Shown: piece after piece, positions 24,131 through 33,055 of the stretch
How positions within the stretch are numbered: the first letter of the stretch is position 1
Layout of the letters: every line of letters starts with the position of its first letter
Assembly: GCA_030621785.1 (NCBI GenBank)
Contig: JAUXGZ010000007.1
Coordinates: 1 to 47,436 of the forward strand
Origin: Gammaproteobacteria bacterium
Lineage (GTDB): Bacteria; Pseudomonadota; Gammaproteobacteria; DSM-19610
DNA: 47,436 nt
Direction: 5' to 3'
Notes under the pieces: generated by a model
Databases searched by the model: none
Seen by the model: only the letters and a program-made list of their open reading frames with translations
Told to the model about the DNA's origin: nothing
Program-made: the position numbers and the translations under genes

Positions 24131-24360
24131 CTCCTTCCTGATCGATCCGATCAACAAATCGACGGTGGATTTTCACCCGCCTCAATGCCAGTAATCAACC
24201 GGTTACAGCATAAAACGGTGCTGATACCGGGTGGAATATGTATGCTCGACAGGATCGATGCACTGTGTAACTCATCGGTCCGCTATACTGTATGGACAAT
24301 TGTGCTGGATCAAGAATAACCATATCCGGATTTATATGCCCCATGCAGTACCGTGTAAGC

Positions 24361-25248
24361 ATGAGTACGATTAATAAATACAATGTGTTGTATGCGATTC
24401 TTGTTTGCATGCAGCTGATTGCGTGTACCGCGCAGCAAACACGTATTCCACACGGCGTGATCCCGGAGTCAGTTCCGCCAACCGCAGAGGAAGAGGCCGG
24501 CGGGAAGGAAATATTCACGGACCTGAGCGCAGATTACCCGGTTGACACCAGCAGCGCCCGTCACGACCAGCTGGATCGCGTATTCAATCGTCTGGCGGTA
24601 GCAGCGACGGTCAACCCTGGCGACTGGCAGGTTTTCCTGCTGAACGCGCCGGATGTTGCAGATATTCGAGCTATACAGGGCAACTATCTTTTTGTCTGGT
24701 CGGGTATATTCGATGTTGTCGAAGACGAGGATGAACTGGCCGGCCTTCTGGCCTGTGAAATGGCACACGGTCTGGCGCGGCATACTGATCCGGTTGAATT
24801 CAACATGGCGTCAGAGTTGCTGTTTGGTTTTACCGATGTCGCCACCAGCATTGGTCTTGTCGTTCTGACGCAAGGAGCAGTGAACCTCAGCGGCATCAGC
24901 GTGACTCGCTGGGCATACGTGGAGGCAACCGACCTGGATCCTGTCGATCGCGCATACAGCGACGAGCAAGTTGAGGATATGGCGGAAATTGCCCTGCTTA
25001 TTCTTGATCAATCCAGCTATTCCCCGGACGGGCTGTTGCAATTCTGGAAGCGAGCCGGAAAGGATCGTGCTTCACAGAAAAATGTGAAATTGCTTATCCG
25101 CAAGACACCGCCACTGGAGCGGGTAATCATCCTGGAGGCAGCCCGGGCACAACTTCCTGCCGGGTATAAAACAGGTGATAAGGCTGAGGACGTTGCTGAA
25201 AAGGTCGTTCCCCCCGGTGGGCAGGCCACTGATTCCCTGTCCATGTAA
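24361..25248 (+). CDS. M48-like lipoprotein with altered zinc motif
   Basis: A 295-residue protein from the ATG giving MSTINKYNVLYAILVCMQLIAC, a lipoprotein signal with a LIAC lipobox; the upstream ATGs at 24292 and 24343 would bury it. The body follows M48 peptidases (LoiP/YcaL/BepA-like): WSGIFDVVEDEDELAGLLACEMAHGLARH, given here in part, then a YSDEQVEDMAE helix where M48 enzymes have ExEAD. The normal HExxH is C132-E-M-A-H136, so the first zinc histidine is cysteine. It may be catalytically inactive or use an unusual site. No clear ribosome-binding site. Isolated between purB and the dockerin-like gene. Confidence 0.75.
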   Translation: MSTINKYNVLYAILVCMQLIACTAQQTRIPHGVIPESVPPTAEEEAGGKEIFTDLSADYPVDTSSARHDQLDRVFNRLAVAATVNPGDWQVFLLNAPDVADIRAIQGNYLFVWSGIFDVVEDEDELAGLLACEMAHGLARHTDPVEFNMASELLFGFTDVATSIGLVVLTQGAVNLSGISVTRWAYVEATDLDPVDRAYSDEQVEDMAEIALLILDQSSYSPDGLLQFWKRAGKDRASQKNVKLLIRKTPPLERVIILEAARAQLPAGYKTGDKAEDVAEKVVPPGGQATDSLSM

Positions 25249-25299
25249 TTTTCGATGGCTGGAATTGATGGGTCAACCGGCTGGTAACATAATCCGGAG

Positions 25300-25500
25300 C
25301 CCATTGTCGCCAACTACAAGTCAGGTTTTGAAACCATCAGGCAGCGGTACTTTCCTGACCAGGACGCACTGTTCCATATGGATTTCTCCATGTACGGTGA
25401 GGGCACGAACACCCAGACCTTCGGTACAGAAGAAGCCGTACATGTCTCACTGGTACTGATCGAAAGCTTAATGAAAGACAGGAAACATAAACCGGAATAA
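25300..25500 (+). pseudogene. possible C-terminal remnant without a start codon
   Basis: After an in-frame stop at 25285-25287 the frame encodes about 66 protein-like residues (PIVANYKSGFETIRQRYF, DQDALFHMDFSMYGEG, VHVSLVLIESLMKDRK) with no ATG, GTG or TTG near the beginning; the first ATG is at 25377. The family was not recognised. It could be a truncated gene or chance. Confidence 0.3.
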
Positions 25501-25560
25501 CCCCCTGCCACCCGACTTGTTACCTCGTAGACGGCGCGATCACTCTATGACCGGAACTGC

Positions 25561-28170
25561 TCAGGGACAGTAGGCCGCATTGATGAAACCGCCCAGCTCG
25601 TGATGCTCCCACGTGTCGCACCACTGATCCCTGAGTTGTTCCTTTTGGGCGTTGCTCGAAAAACCCAGGTTATTGATCGACAGCTGCATCCAGCGGTTGG
25701 CCATCTCGTAACGATCCTTGTACGTCGATGCCTGTACCAGATCGGCCGCCCAGTACGACAGGTTCAGGAAGGTAAGATCGTCGGCGGGACGCAGGATATT
25801 GGTCAGCGAGTTTCCGTCGGCGCGCTTGCCGTGATAGATTTCCCACATCGGTTGTCCCGGCACGCGGCCGGCCTCGTACGGACCCTGTCCCGAGGTATTG
25901 TCGACACACCAGTAGTCGCTAAGATCCAGTCGGGTCGAAGTATTGGCATGCACGCGTCCCCGCACCGCACTCTTGGTAAACAGGCGGCTGTTGGATGGGT
26001 TGAATCCGACTCCGTAGTAGTAATGCCAGAACGCCTGTGGAGCGACCGAGCCAAGCATGCCCTCGTGCAGGAATTTACCCTGGTTGCCGCCACCGCAATC
26101 GAGTCCGCTGCTGATGCCGAAATACTGCCCCATGACGAAGTGATTCATCTCATGATGAATCACGCTCGGCGTACCCACGCAGCCATTTCCCTCGCAGGTC
26201 ACGAAGCTACTGCCGCCATCGTCGTAATCCGAGGCGAAACAGTTCGCGTTCGTGCTCTTGCATTCCTCGCGTATACGGATCTTGTAGAGGCTCTCACCGA
26301 GGTTGTGTTGCGTAGCTACCGGCAGGCTCGAGGAGGCGTAATAGTCGTCGCTGCAGGAGTTGATGATGAACGCGAAGCGCTTGTAGTTCGACACGTTGGA
26401 CGACAACACGCCGAGATGACTCAGAGTGGGTCTTAACCACAGTATGAACTTGCGTGCCCAGAAGTAGGTATGACTCTCGGCGAAACTGCCTGACGAGGCC
26501 GCCGGGCTCCAGATGTTGAAATCACGCGCCGAACGATGCGTGTGACGGATGAAGGAGTTCGTGCCGTTGGTGGTGTTATACGCCAGTGGCCGCCACAGGC
26601 TATTCCTCGGTGTCGACGTACAGGTGAACTGGCCGAAATTACCGCCTCCGCGCTCATCGGTCATCAGGTAGAAGAAATCGTGTTCGAGCGAGTTGTCATC
26701 ACGCGTATAAATGCCGTTGGAGGTGACCTGGAATGCACCACTGCCCAGGTCACCGTTACTGTATGCCCAGCGACGTGTCCTGGCGTCGGTGTAGGCAGTG
26801 ACATTGTCACTGACGTTCAGCACCCTGGCCGTATCCGCATCGACGAGTACGGTCAGATCGAATTCCGGATCCTCCGGGATTACCAGATCGACACGCCAGA
26901 CATTCAGGCGACGAATCACATCGACATGGATCTTGCTGGCAACGATGCTCCATCGCGTTATCGGTTCACCGCTGGTTTTCCCGGCGGCCGCCAGCGCGGC
27001 TTTTTCGGCCGCAGCTTGATCCACGGTCGTGTCGGGGGGTACTGACAACTTCCCGGGCGTCATCAGCTGCCGGGAAATATTGATCACATTCCAGTTGTGA
27101 TCGAGCTGAATAACGGTTTGCCCGTACAGGACAGGCAGCTTGCCCAGCATCTGGCCGTCAAACCTTAGACGTCGGTAATACTTGCCTTCGCTGTACTGCA
27201 TGCCGGTCAGTGACGAGAGATCGGCACCACCAGCCGCATTTCGCGGCATTTTGAACAGCTCACCAAAACGGGCCATAAATGCGCTTGCAATTGCCATCGC
27301 CACAGGCGCGTTGCGCTTTTGTGCCTCGTCTCTCGGCGGACGGTAATCCTCGGGAACACCGTCGAGGAACCTGGCCGGCCTCGTGCGAACGATCTCGGCC
27401 GGTTTTGTCGGCGAGGGGTCGTTCTCCACGGCATCGAACCGCTCATTCTCTGGTGGCGGTTTGGGGTTCTCCGGCTCGAACAGCAAAGGGAACCGCGAGG
27501 CCTGGTTCTTCGGTGCATCCAGGTCCTGTCCGGCCCTGGCCAGATCGGTGGGTGCCGCCATGAGCGCGGGTGGTACGGGATCGGTGGAACCCCCCATACT
27601 GGTCAGGACGTCGCGCGCGTAGTCCGGGATCGTCTCCTTCGGCGTGGTGGCAAAACTGTCAATTTCGCAATTGAAGAAACTGAATGCGGCATCGGGATCG
27701 GTTCTCTGGAATTTTGTAATGGCTTTGCGCAGGGCGACTCGTGGCATCGGTTCGAGAAAACGCCCGTCCTCACGCACGATACCCGCTGGTTGTGGTGTAC
27801 ACACGTCTGCCGATGGACCCGGCGCACCGAAGAAGAACCCGCGGAGAATACTAAGGTCGGCAAAGTCGATCTTCAGATCGCCGTTTAAATCGGCAGTGGC
27901 ATCCCATCCTGATGTACCGGGTGCGGTGAAAAATGCGGCTTTCAGCTGGCTCAGGTCGGCGAAGTCGACCTTGAGATCACCATTCAGGTCGGGGTCACAG
28001 GCATTGCCATAACCGTCATCGTCGCTATCGAGCTGCCCGCGATTTCTGATCTCGATGCAATTATCGAAATCGTCGTCTACCCCGTCGAGGTCCTGATCGG
28101 CCGCCCAGGCCACGCTTGTCGCGTTAAGCAGGCCAATCCACAAAAGTGCAAATCCCTGATGCAATGACAT
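25561..28170 (-). CDS. secreted zinc metallopeptidase-like protein with N-terminal dockerin-like module
   Basis: An 869-residue exported protein. The signal peptide (MSLHQGFALLWIGLLNATSVAWA) is followed at once by a TSP3-like loop and a duplicated EF-hand module: DFADLSQLKAAFF near 62-83 and DFADLSILRGFFF near 92-113. A propeptide-like part (about 270-430, with FTP/PepSY features such as GQTVIQLDHNWNVI) leads to a catalytic region with HEMNH at 673-677 and FLHEGMLGS about 30 residues later as a candidate third ligand. This resembles M36/M4-type gluzincins but is not a clear family member. GGAGG lies five bases before the ATG at 28170; the frame extends 34 codons upstream. It is the same kind of protein as its neighbour at 28460. 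Confidence 0.8.
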   Translation of the reverse strand: MSLHQGFALLWIGLLNATSVAWAADQDLDGVDDDFDNCIEIRNRGQLDSDDDGYGNACDPDLNGDLKVDFADLSQLKAAFFTAPGTSGWDATADLNGDLKIDFADLSILRGFFFGAPGPSADVCTPQPAGIVREDGRFLEPMPRVALRKAITKFQRTDPDAAFSFFNCEIDSFATTPKETIPDYARDVLTSMGGSTDPVPPALMAAPTDLARAGQDLDAPKNQASRFPLLFEPENPKPPPENERFDAVENDPSPTKPAEIVRTRPARFLDGVPEDYRPPRDEAQKRNAPVAMAIASAFMARFGELFKMPRNAAGGADLSSLTGMQYSEGKYYRRLRFDGQMLGKLPVLYGQTVIQLDHNWNVINISRQLMTPGKLSVPPDTTVDQAAAEKAALAAAGKTSGEPITRWSIVASKIHVDVIRRLNVWRVDLVIPEDPEFDLTVLVDADTARVLNVSDNVTAYTDARTRRWAYSNGDLGSGAFQVTSNGIYTRDDNSLEHDFFYLMTDERGGGNFGQFTCTSTPRNSLWRPLAYNTTNGTNSFIRHTHRSARDFNIWSPAASSGSFAESHTYFWARKFILWLRPTLSHLGVLSSNVSNYKRFAFIINSCSDDYYASSSLPVATQHNLGESLYKIRIREECKSTNANCFASDYDDGGSSFVTCEGNGCVGTPSVIHHEMNHFVMGQYFGISSGLDCGGGNQGKFLHEGMLGSVAPQAFWHYYYGVGFNPSNSRLFTKSAVRGRVHANTSTRLDLSDYWCVDNTSGQGPYEAGRVPGQPMWEIYHGKRADGNSLTNILRPADDLTFLNLSYWAADLVQASTYKDRYEMANRWMQLSINNLGFSSNAQKEQLRDQWCDTWEHHELGGFINAAYCP
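27832..28000 (-). repeat. duplicated EF-hand (dockerin-like) coding module, copy B
   Basis: Two units encoding an Asp/Asn loop and DFADLSxLxxxFF, followed by APGTSG and APGPSA respectively. Unlike the other two copies, this one is at the N-terminus of its protein. Confidence 0.8.
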
Positions 28171-28459
28171 GTCTGCCTCCATACGTGACATGCACACGGC
28201 CCTGAAAACACACCCCGGATTCCCGATCCGTGTGTCATGTGTGTCCGCCCGATCTCCGACCGGAGACACCACTCATGATCCTTTAACCATAGTAGAAAAT
28301 CTAACGTTTGCAAGCACGTCAACAGGGTCATATTTAGGCTCAAAAGCCTTGTCATTGCGCGGAACGCAGTTGATGTGAGGTTGCTGAACCCCATCCGTAA
28401 TGCCGGTAGCGAGGTACTTCAGACGAAATATATGGACAACAAATAATGCAGCAGCCGAG
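28171..28459. other. intergenic region between the two large secreted-protein genes
   Basis: About 290 bases on the minus strand upstream of the 25561-28170 gene. TTGACG is present near 28317-28322 (minus strand) but no -10 box lies at 16-18 bases; TACTAT is at 22. No terminator with a T run follows the 28460 stop, so readthrough from the upstream gene is possible. Confidence 0.3.
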
Positions 28460-31400
28460 CTATGGCGCCAGTCCGCTCGGCCCCGGTGGGCTGAAAAACC
28501 TGGATTTCAGGATGGCCAGGTCGGCAAAGTCCACCCGGCCATCGACATTGAGGTCGGCATCCTTATTTTGGCCGACGGTGAAGAACATCGACTTCAGAAT
28601 CGCGAGATCCGCGAAGTCGACTCGCAGGTCGTTATTCAAATCCGGATCACAGTGGTTGCCGAAGCCATCACCGTTGGTGTCCTGCTGATCCGGGTTGGTA
28701 GCGAGTGTACAATTGTCTTCAAGGTCCGACACACCATCGCCATCGCTGTCGAGCGGCACCATAATCTGCTTGCCGATATCTGAAAATCGTCCCGCCAAGA
28801 CACGTACGTTGTCGAGCATGATGTCCTCGTAACCGTCGCGGGAGATAACGAGTGTATAGTTACCCGGAGGCAGATCCCGCATCTTCAGCCTGCCCTCCCG
28901 ACTAAGGAAAAACGGCGGTACTGTGGCGGCCTCAGCCAGGTATACCGCGACCCCGGACGGATCAGCACTTGACATCAGGGAAATCTCGCCGAGAATTGCA
29001 CCCACGACACGGGGTAATACCACCTGGATGGAATCACTGTAATCACTGGGCGATTCATTCTTGTCGGCGTCACGGAAGCGCACGTAGACGGTAGCGATGT
29101 CCGTCACCGGATCCGGTACAACGACGGTATTCACAATCACGGAATAAGGCTGCCAGTTGAGCAGGGGGAAGTCGGCCGGATTGGTGGCAATTTTCATCTC
29201 AGTAACATCCACGGAGGCGACCAGTGACAGGGTCACCGACGTCGAACTCGCCAACTCGGCACCGTTGTTGATAATCACCGATCCGATCGGCGGAACCGGT
29301 TCGGCCTTTGGTGTGCCGGAAAAGACACGGCTGTGCGCCCCCGCGTTGCCGTTCAGATCCAGCGGCTGCACCATGTAGTAATAGGTCTTGTTGTTCTCGA
29401 GTCCGGTATCGGCGTAGAGGCCGGTCATCTCAAGGCCGGAAAGCACCGTCACCACGGACCACGGACCGAAGGAACTGGCCGCCCGCCACAGGCGCATCCG
29501 GGTATAGGTCGGGCTCATGGGATAGCGGATCAGGTTCGTTTCCGGTAACAGGGCAATACCCGGTGGGAACGGCAGATGCTCGTCTACCCAGTCGATGACC
29601 TCCGGGTCGATGGGCAACTCAAGCATATCGTCGTCGGCATCGAACGGATTGGCCCCGCGCAGCGCCTCGGAACCATCGGACTCGCCCCCGTGATCGGTAT
29701 CGGGATGACAGGGATCGGTACCCAGGCGCCATTCCGCAGCCGTGCTCAGCCCATCAAGGTCGAAATCTTCGGCGGTTTCATCGGCAAACGGGTCGAGACA
29801 CGGTTTCGGCAGTTCATAACGATCCGGCATGCCGTCCTCATCCGTGTCGGCCACGGGATCATTCAATTCAGAGACCGAGAAGCCACGCTTGCGGATGCGG
29901 ACAAATGCCTGCGCCAGATTATTGCTTCCATTCGCGACCACCCGAATCTGGTAACTGCCCTCACCGTTGGCCTGTGGAAAGAAATTGGTGGACGTGGTGC
30001 GGGTGTATTCATTGGCATAGGCACCATCGTTCGGGTTGCCATCACCGTGCAGACCGTCATCGAGCAATGGTAGTTCGTTGGTCGCACCGTCCGGATGGAG
30101 AACCAGCGCCGTCACCGCTGCGCCTGTAATCGGGCCCGTCTTGTCGACCAGAGTAGCCACGATGGGCTGCGGCAGGCCCCAGAGGTAAGGAATGCCTTCA
30201 CTCAGGGCATTCTGCTCGTCGTGGGTCTGGCCGAAATAAAAGCGCAAGTTCGCGGCCTGCTGGTCACGCCCGGTGAGGACACCGACATAATCGACATCAC
30301 CCGTCGCGGCAGTCAACTGAATTTCCCACGTACCCATGGACAGGATCCCTGCATGTACGACAATGTGGGCATCGCCCGAAAAAACCTCCACACCTCCAAC
30401 CCCGTTCTGGACAATGGTGTGATCAGGGCGTGTGATCTGTACATCAAGCACATCGCCGGGATCGTTCCAGTGAAATGCGAAGACCGCCTCGGTAATGCCG
30501 CCTTCCTCGATATTCAGAGAATGAACAACGCTTTCTGCATTATCCAACGCACCACTGTCATCCCACAAACGCTCGCGGCGCTCGGCGCTTTCGTTGGCCA
30601 GCAGATAGGCGTCAGCCAGGAGGTTAGGCAGCGGGTCCGAACCGACTGCGGCCGCCGGTGCTATTGCCTTCGCCGATGACGTGGATGCGGTATCGATAGG
30701 AAAAAAGAAGCCATTGGTCTCATCGGCAATCTCCTGCATAAGCCGGTGGTCGGCATCGACACCGAGCGCAAAGGCCGCGACGTGGATACCGGCGTTCTTG
30801 ATACTGGTCCTGACATCCGGCCAGTTGAGAGATGCAGTTTCCCTGCCGTCGCTTAACAGCAGTACCCAGTCCTCCTGAATGGGGCTGCCATTACCGAGGA
30901 GTTCATCCCCGGCACGATCCAGACCGTCGCCAATAGATGTAAGACCAGCCGGGTTGGCATTGATGTTTCTGATAGCGGTCTTGAGCACATCACGGAAGGC
31001 CTGAACCTCCACTAACGGTTCAACAGTCATGGCATCACCATCGAACACCACGACGCCCATGTTGCCGCGCAGGTGGGCGCGATCGACCAACATGGATGCC
31101 GCGCTCCTGGCGGCCGCGATCTTGACCGCGCCGCCGGGTTGGGTCGTACCCAGCATACTGCCGGAAATATCCAGGGTAATGACTTCATCGACGATGTGTT
31201 CTTCGTAACTCACAGAATTGAGTTCGGTCGCAGTGAGGGTGTCAGCAAGATTGACGTATAAATTATATGTACTGGAGTTCGGTTTGTCGGGTGGATAGAT
31301 CGTCAACCAGTAAGTTTGACCAACCTCGCTGCTGGCAAGTATCACGCCCTGGTCATTGGGGTCGTTGTTGTTGCCGATGTAAACGGTGAAATCATCAATA

Positions 31401-32896
31401 TCCAGGCCCTTGATGGTCGGTGCGGCGAGAGAGTTTGGCCCGGTCACGCGCACCGCAACGATCAGCATCTGGCGATCAGGGCCCGGCGGCCCGACATAGG
31501 CCTTGTAACCCGCGGTCGGCAACTCGATATCCAGCGCGCCCGGCCCGCAGTCAAAAATGTATTCAACACGGCGCGAGGCACTCGTGGTGGTAATCACCGC
31601 GCCGAGCTGCGAGTAACCCGTGGTCCCGATGACAAATGCCGCGCCAAAGTCCTTGCCGGCGCCACGCAACAGATTGACGACCCTGGGGTTTGTTGCATCA
31701 TCATCGATACCAAAGACCGCGAAACGCACCGGATCGCCATGATCGAACAGTGTCAGGAACGGCCCCTGATCGATACCACGAAAACCAAAGATATTGCCGC
31801 GCGCGCAATCGCCCGCGACGGCAATATAATAGGCCGATGCCCAGTGCAGCATATCGACCGTGCCCGTACTCAGGCCCTGAGGGACCAGGAAGATGCCATT
31901 GAGGCTAACATTCGCGTAGGTCACGTTGGTGCCGTCGTTCTCGTCGAAATACTGATACCTGCTGGCATCGGGCAACACTGATACATCGTAACTGCGCAGG
32001 ATGTTGGCGATGGAAAAATCCTGGAACCAGTTTTCCAGCGTGGTACCGGGTTTAAAATCCTGCAGCGTCTGCCTGAATGTACCCGGTGTGTTCGGGTTAT
32101 CCTGGTTGGCAGCAGCATTGGCCCAGAACTGGCGCACGAAGTCTGCACCGCGTTCGGGCTCGGTGGTAATATTACCGAACTGTTCAGCGGCGTATTTCCA
32201 GCCCAGTGCCGATTTGTAAGAGGATCCCCAGAACGTCTGGCCAGGGTTATTGAGATAGTTGCCGACTTCAGAAATGTAATTGGTAGCCCCGCTGCCGTCA
32301 TCGAGATCGCTGAACACCTGATCCTCCATCATGCGCGCAGAGCCCTCCACTGCCATCCGGCCCCACTCCACCCAGTTATCGAAGTCGATGTAGGCATACT
32401 GAACGTGGTGAAATAATTCGTGACCGATGACAAGGCGGATGCTTTCTTCGGTTGATGCACAGTAACCGGTGGCCGGCATCGTGATCAGATCTTCTGATGC
32501 ACTGCCGTTATCACAGTTATCATCATCATGAACCCCGCCCGGCGCACAGTCGTAAACCAGCACCAGGGGATCTTCGTCATCGAAGTCCGGCGCTGCAAAG
32601 CCCAGGTCGGAAAAACCATCAAGAAACCCATTCGGATCGCTGAACCCGGTCGATACCGGGCCGGCAATGGCACGTAGCATATTAAGCGCCTGAAAATCAG
32701 GCAGAAAATTATTATCAGCACCACCCGGGGCGGGAGTACCGGGCATGCAGTTGTAAGGGTTGTCGTTCGTGTAGAGGACGCTGTACCCGTCCTTGCTCCA
32801 GTTGTCCTGTAGCGAAAAGAAATGATCTGCGGCCGCTGGTATGGCGGCCAGAAGCGCAGCCAGCGCAAGAGGAATAGACCGGATCGACCTGAACAT
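28460..32896 (-). CDS. giant secreted protein: metallopeptidase-like, VWA, choice-of-anchor and dockerin-like domains
   Basis: A 1,478-residue exported protein starting at MFRSIRSIPLALAALLAAIPAAA, with GGGAGG seven bases upstream. The N-terminal domain has HELFHH (H159, E160, H163) and a downstream VEGSARMMED, as in MXAN_6640-type putative metalloproteases. Residues about 570-760 are a von Willebrand A domain with an intact MIDAS (DISGS from D576, a threonine in GLTSIGDG, and LSDGRE). About 905-1000 resembles the choice-of-anchor X domain (LLDDGLHGDGNPNDGAY). TSP3-like Asp repeats lie near 1015-1095, a fibronectin III-like segment follows, and 1382-1478 ends in a duplicated EF-hand module with DFADLAILK twice and the tail PPGPSGLAP. 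Substrate and location are unknown; I infer an extracellular adhesin/protease. Confidence 0.83.
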   Translation of the reverse strand: MFRSIRSIPLALAALLAAIPAAADHFFSLQDNWSKDGYSVLYTNDNPYNCMPGTPAPGGADNNFLPDFQALNMLRAIAGPVSTGFSDPNGFLDGFSDLGFAAPDFDDEDPLVLVYDCAPGGVHDDDNCDNGSASEDLITMPATGYCASTEESIRLVIGHELFHHVQYAYIDFDNWVEWGRMAVEGSARMMEDQVFSDLDDGSGATNYISEVGNYLNNPGQTFWGSSYKSALGWKYAAEQFGNITTEPERGADFVRQFWANAAANQDNPNTPGTFRQTLQDFKPGTTLENWFQDFSIANILRSYDVSVLPDASRYQYFDENDGTNVTYANVSLNGIFLVPQGLSTGTVDMLHWASAYYIAVAGDCARGNIFGFRGIDQGPFLTLFDHGDPVRFAVFGIDDDATNPRVVNLLRGAGKDFGAAFVIGTTGYSQLGAVITTTSASRRVEYIFDCGPGALDIELPTAGYKAYVGPPGPDRQMLIVAVRVTGPNSLAAPTIKGLDIDDFTVYIGNNNDPNDQGVILASSEVGQTYWLTIYPPDKPNSSTYNLYVNLADTLTATELNSVSYEEHIVDEVITLDISGSMLGTTQPGGAVKIAAARSAASMLVDRAHLRGNMGVVVFDGDAMTVEPLVEVQAFRDVLKTAIRNINANPAGLTSIGDGLDRAGDELLGNGSPIQEDWVLLLSDGRETASLNWPDVRTSIKNAGIHVAAFALGVDADHRLMQEIADETNGFFFPIDTASTSSAKAIAPAAAVGSDPLPNLLADAYLLANESAERRERLWDDSGALDNAESVVHSLNIEEGGITEAVFAFHWNDPGDVLDVQITRPDHTIVQNGVGGVEVFSGDAHIVVHAGILSMGTWEIQLTAATGDVDYVGVLTGRDQQAANLRFYFGQTHDEQNALSEGIPYLWGLPQPIVATLVDKTGPITGAAVTALVLHPDGATNELPLLDDGLHGDGNPNDGAYANEYTRTTSTNFFPQANGEGSYQIRVVANGSNNLAQAFVRIRKRGFSVSELNDPVADTDEDGMPDRYELPKPCLDPFADETAEDFDLDGLSTAAEWRLGTDPCHPDTDHGGESDGSEALRGANPFDADDDMLELPIDPEVIDWVDEHLPFPPGIALLPETNLIRYPMSPTYTRMRLWRAASSFGPWSVVTVLSGLEMTGLYADTGLENNKTYYYMVQPLDLNGNAGAHSRVFSGTPKAEPVPPIGSVIINNGAELASSTSVTLSLVASVDVTEMKIATNPADFPLLNWQPYSVIVNTVVVPDPVTDIATVYVRFRDADKNESPSDYSDSIQVVLPRVVGAILGEISLMSSADPSGVAVYLAEAATVPPFFLSREGRLKMRDLPPGNYTLVISRDGYEDIMLDNVRVLAGRFSDIGKQIMVPLDSDGDGVSDLEDNCTLATNPDQQDTNGDGFGNHCDPDLNNDLRVDFADLAILKSMFFTVGQNKDADLNVDGRVDFADLAILKSRFFSPPGPSGLAP
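28471..28646 (-). repeat. duplicated EF-hand (dockerin-like) coding module, copy C
   Basis: Two units encoding DFADLAILKSMFF and DFADLAILKSRFF, ending PPGPSGL three residues from the protein end. It is very close in both protein and DNA to copy A, with the same PPGPSGL ending. Confidence 0.8.
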
Positions 32897-32932
32897 CGAG
32901 TGCCTCCCTTCCTTTGTCAGCACGGTCACTAA

Positions 32933-32938
32933 ATTATA
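32933..32938 (-). promoter_or_regulatory. possible -10 box for the giant secreted-protein gene
   Basis: A perfect TATAAT on the minus strand 37 bases before the ATG. The -35 region is poor; ACCAC and GTGGT flank a small inverted repeat just upstream (about 32941-32963), suggesting an activator- or repressor-controlled promoter. Confidence 0.4.
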
Positions 32939-33055
32939 GACCACCACGTCATGGGTAGTGGTTTTTTGAATCAGCTGAACAGGCCGGCCTGCACAGGTGC
33001 CCGGCCAGGCTGTCCGTCTTCCGCCTGTAGACGGATTGGTTACGAATCCCGAACC

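Follow-up and report, generated by a model that had tools for sequence, protein, structure and literature searches.

In peptidases of the M48 family, BepA among them, protein cutting is believed to go together with a chaperone-like holding of outer-membrane proteins. The E. coli enzyme (BepA/YfgC; PDB 6ait/6sar) coordinates zinc through H136, H140, E201 and H246, and the same work describes the role of His246 and the HPx4R active-site plug that is conserved across PF01435 (PMC7950410). Through its edge strand the enzyme binds LptD intermediates, and with the protease repressed this strand is required for the chaperone-like function (PMC8423444). A family member that has lost a catalytic residue is known from sugar beet, RF1-Oma1, which carries HQVGH and remodels the assembly of its client preSATP6 with no degradation (PMC6894571, PMC7154926). 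Pseudopeptidases as such are well known, and in other metallopeptidase families metal ligands have been lost while the fold and a binding function were kept (PMC11266112). The term 'M48' is absent from the text of that 2024 review, and a limited literature search found no earlier account of a bacterial M48 lipoprotein subfamily that is inactive.

The locus lies in a window of 47,436 nucleotides, the whole stretch of DNA that was analysed, from a gammaproteobacterial genome of 2.15 Mb that is 75% complete. The putatively inactive M48-like lipoprotein is encoded on the plus strand by a full open reading frame at 24343..25248, or from 24361 according to an earlier note made on this DNA from the sequence alone. 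The frame 24361-25248 is clean and yields 295 aa (the numbering used below), and an in-frame ATG six codons upstream, at 24343, would give a product of 301 aa; the latter may be the true start, since an MQ[YW] start is common to the four gammaproteobacterial members of the subfamily. A signal peptide and lipobox (24361..24426, +) can be read directly from the sequence, LIAC with the lipidated Cys22 followed by Thr, as in a bacterial lipoprotein, and this Cys-Thr pair is aligned in all clade members that cover the region. Under the standard Lol rule a Thr at position +2 sorts a lipoprotein to the outer membrane, and because the lipobox carries this residue the protein is probably anchored there, on the periplasmic face. 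The earlier note described both the lipobox and the frame correctly, and its central observation, that C132-E-M-A-H136 (24754..24768, +) stands in the place of HExxH, is borne out by sequence and alignment, the cysteine codon being TGT at 24754-24756.

The protein belongs to M48 by its Pfam match to PF01435 (E 4.7e-9; score 36.8 bits, cut-off 20.3) and by a predicted fold that resembles BepA and 3c37 with Z scores of 16-17. PF01435 is matched in 12/12 members of the subfamily and is the sole Pfam domain found in the 295-301 aa protein. An AlphaFold2 model built from six sequences has a mean pLDDT of 64.6, with most core blocks at 80-96 and an unreliable segment at residues 148-202. It superposes on BepA with Z 16.8 and 3.7 A over 193 residues, and on PDB 3c37, a stand-alone M48 peptidase from Geobacter sulfurreducens, with Z 16.3 and 3.5 A over 182. 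The latter also gives the best sequence match of any solved structure (profile E 4.3e-15), but where 3c37 has HExxH and ExxAD the window protein has CExxH and VxxxA. With BepA it shares the M48 core fold and alignable edge-strand and plug regions, but it has no TPR domain and is missing three of the four ligands; with 24.4 bits against a cut-off of 570 for the BepA equivalog NF052400 it is thus not a BepA. Four other M48 genes are present in the same genome, all canonical and all far stronger matches to M48.

Eleven further relatives were found. Three come from gammaproteobacterial MAGs and are 48-53% identical; the other eight, at 34-44%, are spread over seven genomes of the order Desulfobacterales. 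Two strong homologs (54% and 57% over the matched part, E about 1e-92) came from a sample of 369 genomes across the class, and the third gammaproteobacterial one from a family search. A contig scan with an alignment as query placed these homologs in uncultured gammaproteobacterial MAGs and added two partial copies in a Desulfobacterales MAG, whose order, once searched, contributed six more genomes (carriers 7/291). The partial copies (L069 1-702 and L070 5923-6570) lie at contig ends of that one MAG and are 99% identical as proteins; at a dS of about 0.10 they may be strain variants or a duplication. No relatives were returned by a scan of genome contigs with a single-sequence query or by a search of viral contigs and plasmids, and in a phylum-wide sample of 398 genomes the gene was found only in the window's own genome.

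In a tree computed with the motif columns left out, the 12 members are united in a single clade (support 100/100), whose stem is long at 1.82 changes per column; a long-branch protein (L015) adjoins it, its placement unsure. Inside the clade the gammaproteobacterial members cluster with L069, from Desulfobacterales (99/90). This would be compatible with a transfer between phyla, the position of the clade's internal root not being established. A search of the Desulfobacterales phylum for a member with HExxH inside the clade found none, and the next four matches there (81-91 bits, versus 244-544 for most members) are ordinary HExxH lipoproteins. Between pairs of members dN/dS lies mostly at 0.1-0.25, and at about 0.05-0.33 overall; the deeper pairs, being close to synonymous saturation, carry less weight, and the least saturated pairs give 0.21 at a dS of 0.71 (L086/L087) and 0.05 at a dS of 0.10 (L069/L070). 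Judged by these ratios, the subfamily is under purifying selection in two phyla.

The extent of the active-site losses is apparent from an alignment of the 12 members with 63 other M48 proteins, which were picked for carrying HExxH, so that their first His is there by selection and their other positions are not. In all 63, H-E-H is intact, as are the third-ligand Glu, the EAD Asp and the plug His-Pro. None of the 12 members has His at the first position of the motif (C in eight, T in two near-identical copies from one MAG, G in one and Y in one, versus H in 63/63), and the general base Glu133 and the second ligand His136 are invariant (12/12). The third zinc ligand, BepA Glu201, is replaced by V204 in the window protein (24970..24972, +), as seen both in this alignment and in profile alignments to 3c37 and BepA; across the clade the position holds V in three members, L in one and E in seven, one member not reaching it, versus E in 63/63. 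The non-Glu residues (V, L, V, V) are those of the gammaproteobacterial group, and the seven with Glu are Desulfobacterales sequences. Further along the helix A208 (24982..24984, +) takes the place of the invariant Asp of ExEAD, a position occupied by A, T and V in eight, two and one of the 11 covering members versus D in 63/63, and K248-T249 (25102..25107, +) stands where BepA has the plug residues His246-Pro247, a pair absent from all 11 covering members versus H and P in 63/63 each. The Desulfobacterales sequences settle the register of this third helix, as they bridge M48 and the window protein without a gap (Desulfobacterales YNEAHEREAAGIALLIM, M48 YSREHEKEADRIG, window YSDEQVEDMAEIALLIL), and the profile alignments to 3c37 and BepA give the identical register. 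The ED-x-AE helix that the earlier note had matched to M48 is one residue out of this register, and the active site is therefore more degraded than was thought. The clade also has an acidic motif of its own, WxYVExxDxDxLDRxY. Altogether the window protein keeps one of BepA's four zinc ligands, and it has neither HExxH with both His, nor the third Glu of ExEAD, nor the HPx4R plug.

By sequence the protein thus has the marks of a pseudopeptidase, with ligand residues lost and selection retained, and we consider it probable that the clade is a proteolytically dead M48 subfamily acting as a periplasmic client-binding or chaperone-like lipoprotein. The two parts of this reading, which the earlier note had raised as an option, stand on different footing. 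The proteolytic inactivity of the subfamily is well supported by the pattern of ligand losses and selection, and the window protein itself presumably neither holds zinc nor cuts. The client-binding role is one that we infer by analogy with the BepA edge strand and with sugar-beet RF1-Oma1, an M48-fold protein that has likewise lost a catalytic residue and alters its client without degrading it, but which is a plant mitochondrial protein of another lineage and keeps both motif His while losing the Glu. The substrate-binding edge strand of M48 (NAFxxPGG) has its counterpart in D101-IRAIQG-N108 (24661..24684, +), a strand in the model, in which R103, A104, G107 and N108 are invariant in 12/12 members; the motif has been recast to xxRAxxGN and is strongly conserved. 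According to the mechanism we propose, the protein is exported, lipid-modified and probably placed on the periplasmic face of the outer membrane. It retains the M48 fold, the ExxH active-site helix and the recast RAxxGN strand. Because it has lost the first His, in the window's group the third Glu, and in all covering members the EAD Asp and the zinc-capping His-Pro of the plug, it would keep an extended client polypeptide in its old substrate groove and leave it uncut, serving as a chaperone or a decoy. An unfolded outer-membrane protein and the substrate of an active M48 peptidase are possible clients. If this is true, a cutting-dead M48 subfamily under purifying selection offers a ready test of whether the holding function stands alone, and database labels such as 'M48 family metalloprotease' will mislabel its proteins.

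Several observations weigh against this reading. Glu133 and His136 are kept in 12/12 members, more than a wholly unused site needs, and the site may for this reason still have some metal or polar function. The third Glu is kept in seven Desulfobacterales members, four of them with C, H and E together. As to the client, the neighbourhoods are not conserved beyond close relatives and point to none. The earlier note had offered a second option, in which the protein is an active or metal-binding M48 peptidase with Cys132 in place of the first His as zinc ligand. We regard this as improbable, even though Cys is present in 8/12 members next to an invariant ExxH, is, apart from the lipidated one, the only Cys of the mature gammaproteobacterial proteins, and co-occurs with the second His and the third Glu in L085-L088. 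Whether the Cys is fixed among homologs, the check proposed in the same note, has a clear answer: it is not obligatory, four members (two of them the near-identical copies from one MAG) having T, G or Y. Moreover, Glu is lost in the window's group, which keeps the Cys, and kept where the Cys is absent (L069, L084, L089), and the EAD Asp and the plug His-Pro are each lost in 11/11. L085-L088 alone combine C, H and Glu, so that a zinc site with Cys is conceivable in those four but unlikely in the window protein. In five Desulfobacterales members (L084-L088) there is an extra Cys near residue 60-80 (LC[ED]D), and in the four of these that also have the active-site Cys a disulfide is possible.

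It is similarly doubtful that ExxH, the Cys where present and WxYVExxDxDxLDR make up a non-canonical metal or catalytic centre, which would render the clade a repurposed enzyme and not a dead one. The more specific version, in which E133, H136 and H141 form a new metal or hydrolase centre with the acidic motif, draws on the invariance of E139, H142, H147, D197, D199, D202, R203 and Y205 (301-aa numbering) across two phyla. These residues could equally be structural salt bridges, the segment 148-202 is modelled without confidence and we know of no enzyme with such a residue set. We hold this version to be slightly less credible still. A decaying gene, a recent mutation or a sequencing error in the window genome would suit the absence of the gene from the sampled same-genus genomes and the end of homology at purB but is scarcely conceivable, given homologs that all lack the His, an open frame, lipobox and Cys common to relatives at 48-53% identity, and low dN/dS among members, so that the earlier note was right to see more than simple decay. 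The same note had held that sister species all having His would point to a mutation or error; no same-genus copy turned up in 16 genomes, and the true relatives, which belong to another family and another phylum, are all without it.

The preferred reading, a pseudopeptidase, concerns a gene that is patchily distributed, by gain or loss, as follows from its absence from the genus and from the end of homology at purB. It occurs in 0/16 sampled same-genus genomes, where the best M48 matches are paralogs of about 20-36% identity. In ten relatives, nine of which belong to the genus, DNA homology breaks off where purB ends, with no trace of the gene beyond. Mis-binning of the contig as the cause of this pattern was rejected because purB, which lies on this contig, matches genus members over its full length at 78-83% identity. 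The region downstream of purB (about 24131-33000, compared up to position 30000 of the window) looks lineage-specific.

A comparison of neighbourhoods found no gene common to the loci of the whole clade. Synteny is local: four Desulfobacterales loci share it with one another, and so do two gammaproteobacterial loci, which have pbpG-like, ttcA-like and dsbB-like genes nearby, names that come from reading the sequences. The loci of L085-L088 (L091-L094) share genes for a secreted protein of 217-252 aa, a solute-binding-protein-like protein and a PLP-enzyme-like protein, functions likewise assigned by reading. In the window the minus strand encodes a 903-aa protein at 25561-28272 with an HExxH-like HHEMNHF and dockerin-like repeats (PF00404, E 1.5e-5), for which Pfam names no peptidase family. 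A 1495-aa protein at 28460-32947 (-) combines GHELFHH with a VWA domain and, at its C terminus, a dockerin-like repeat, and the two neighbours thus form a pair of large proteins that both carry such repeats.
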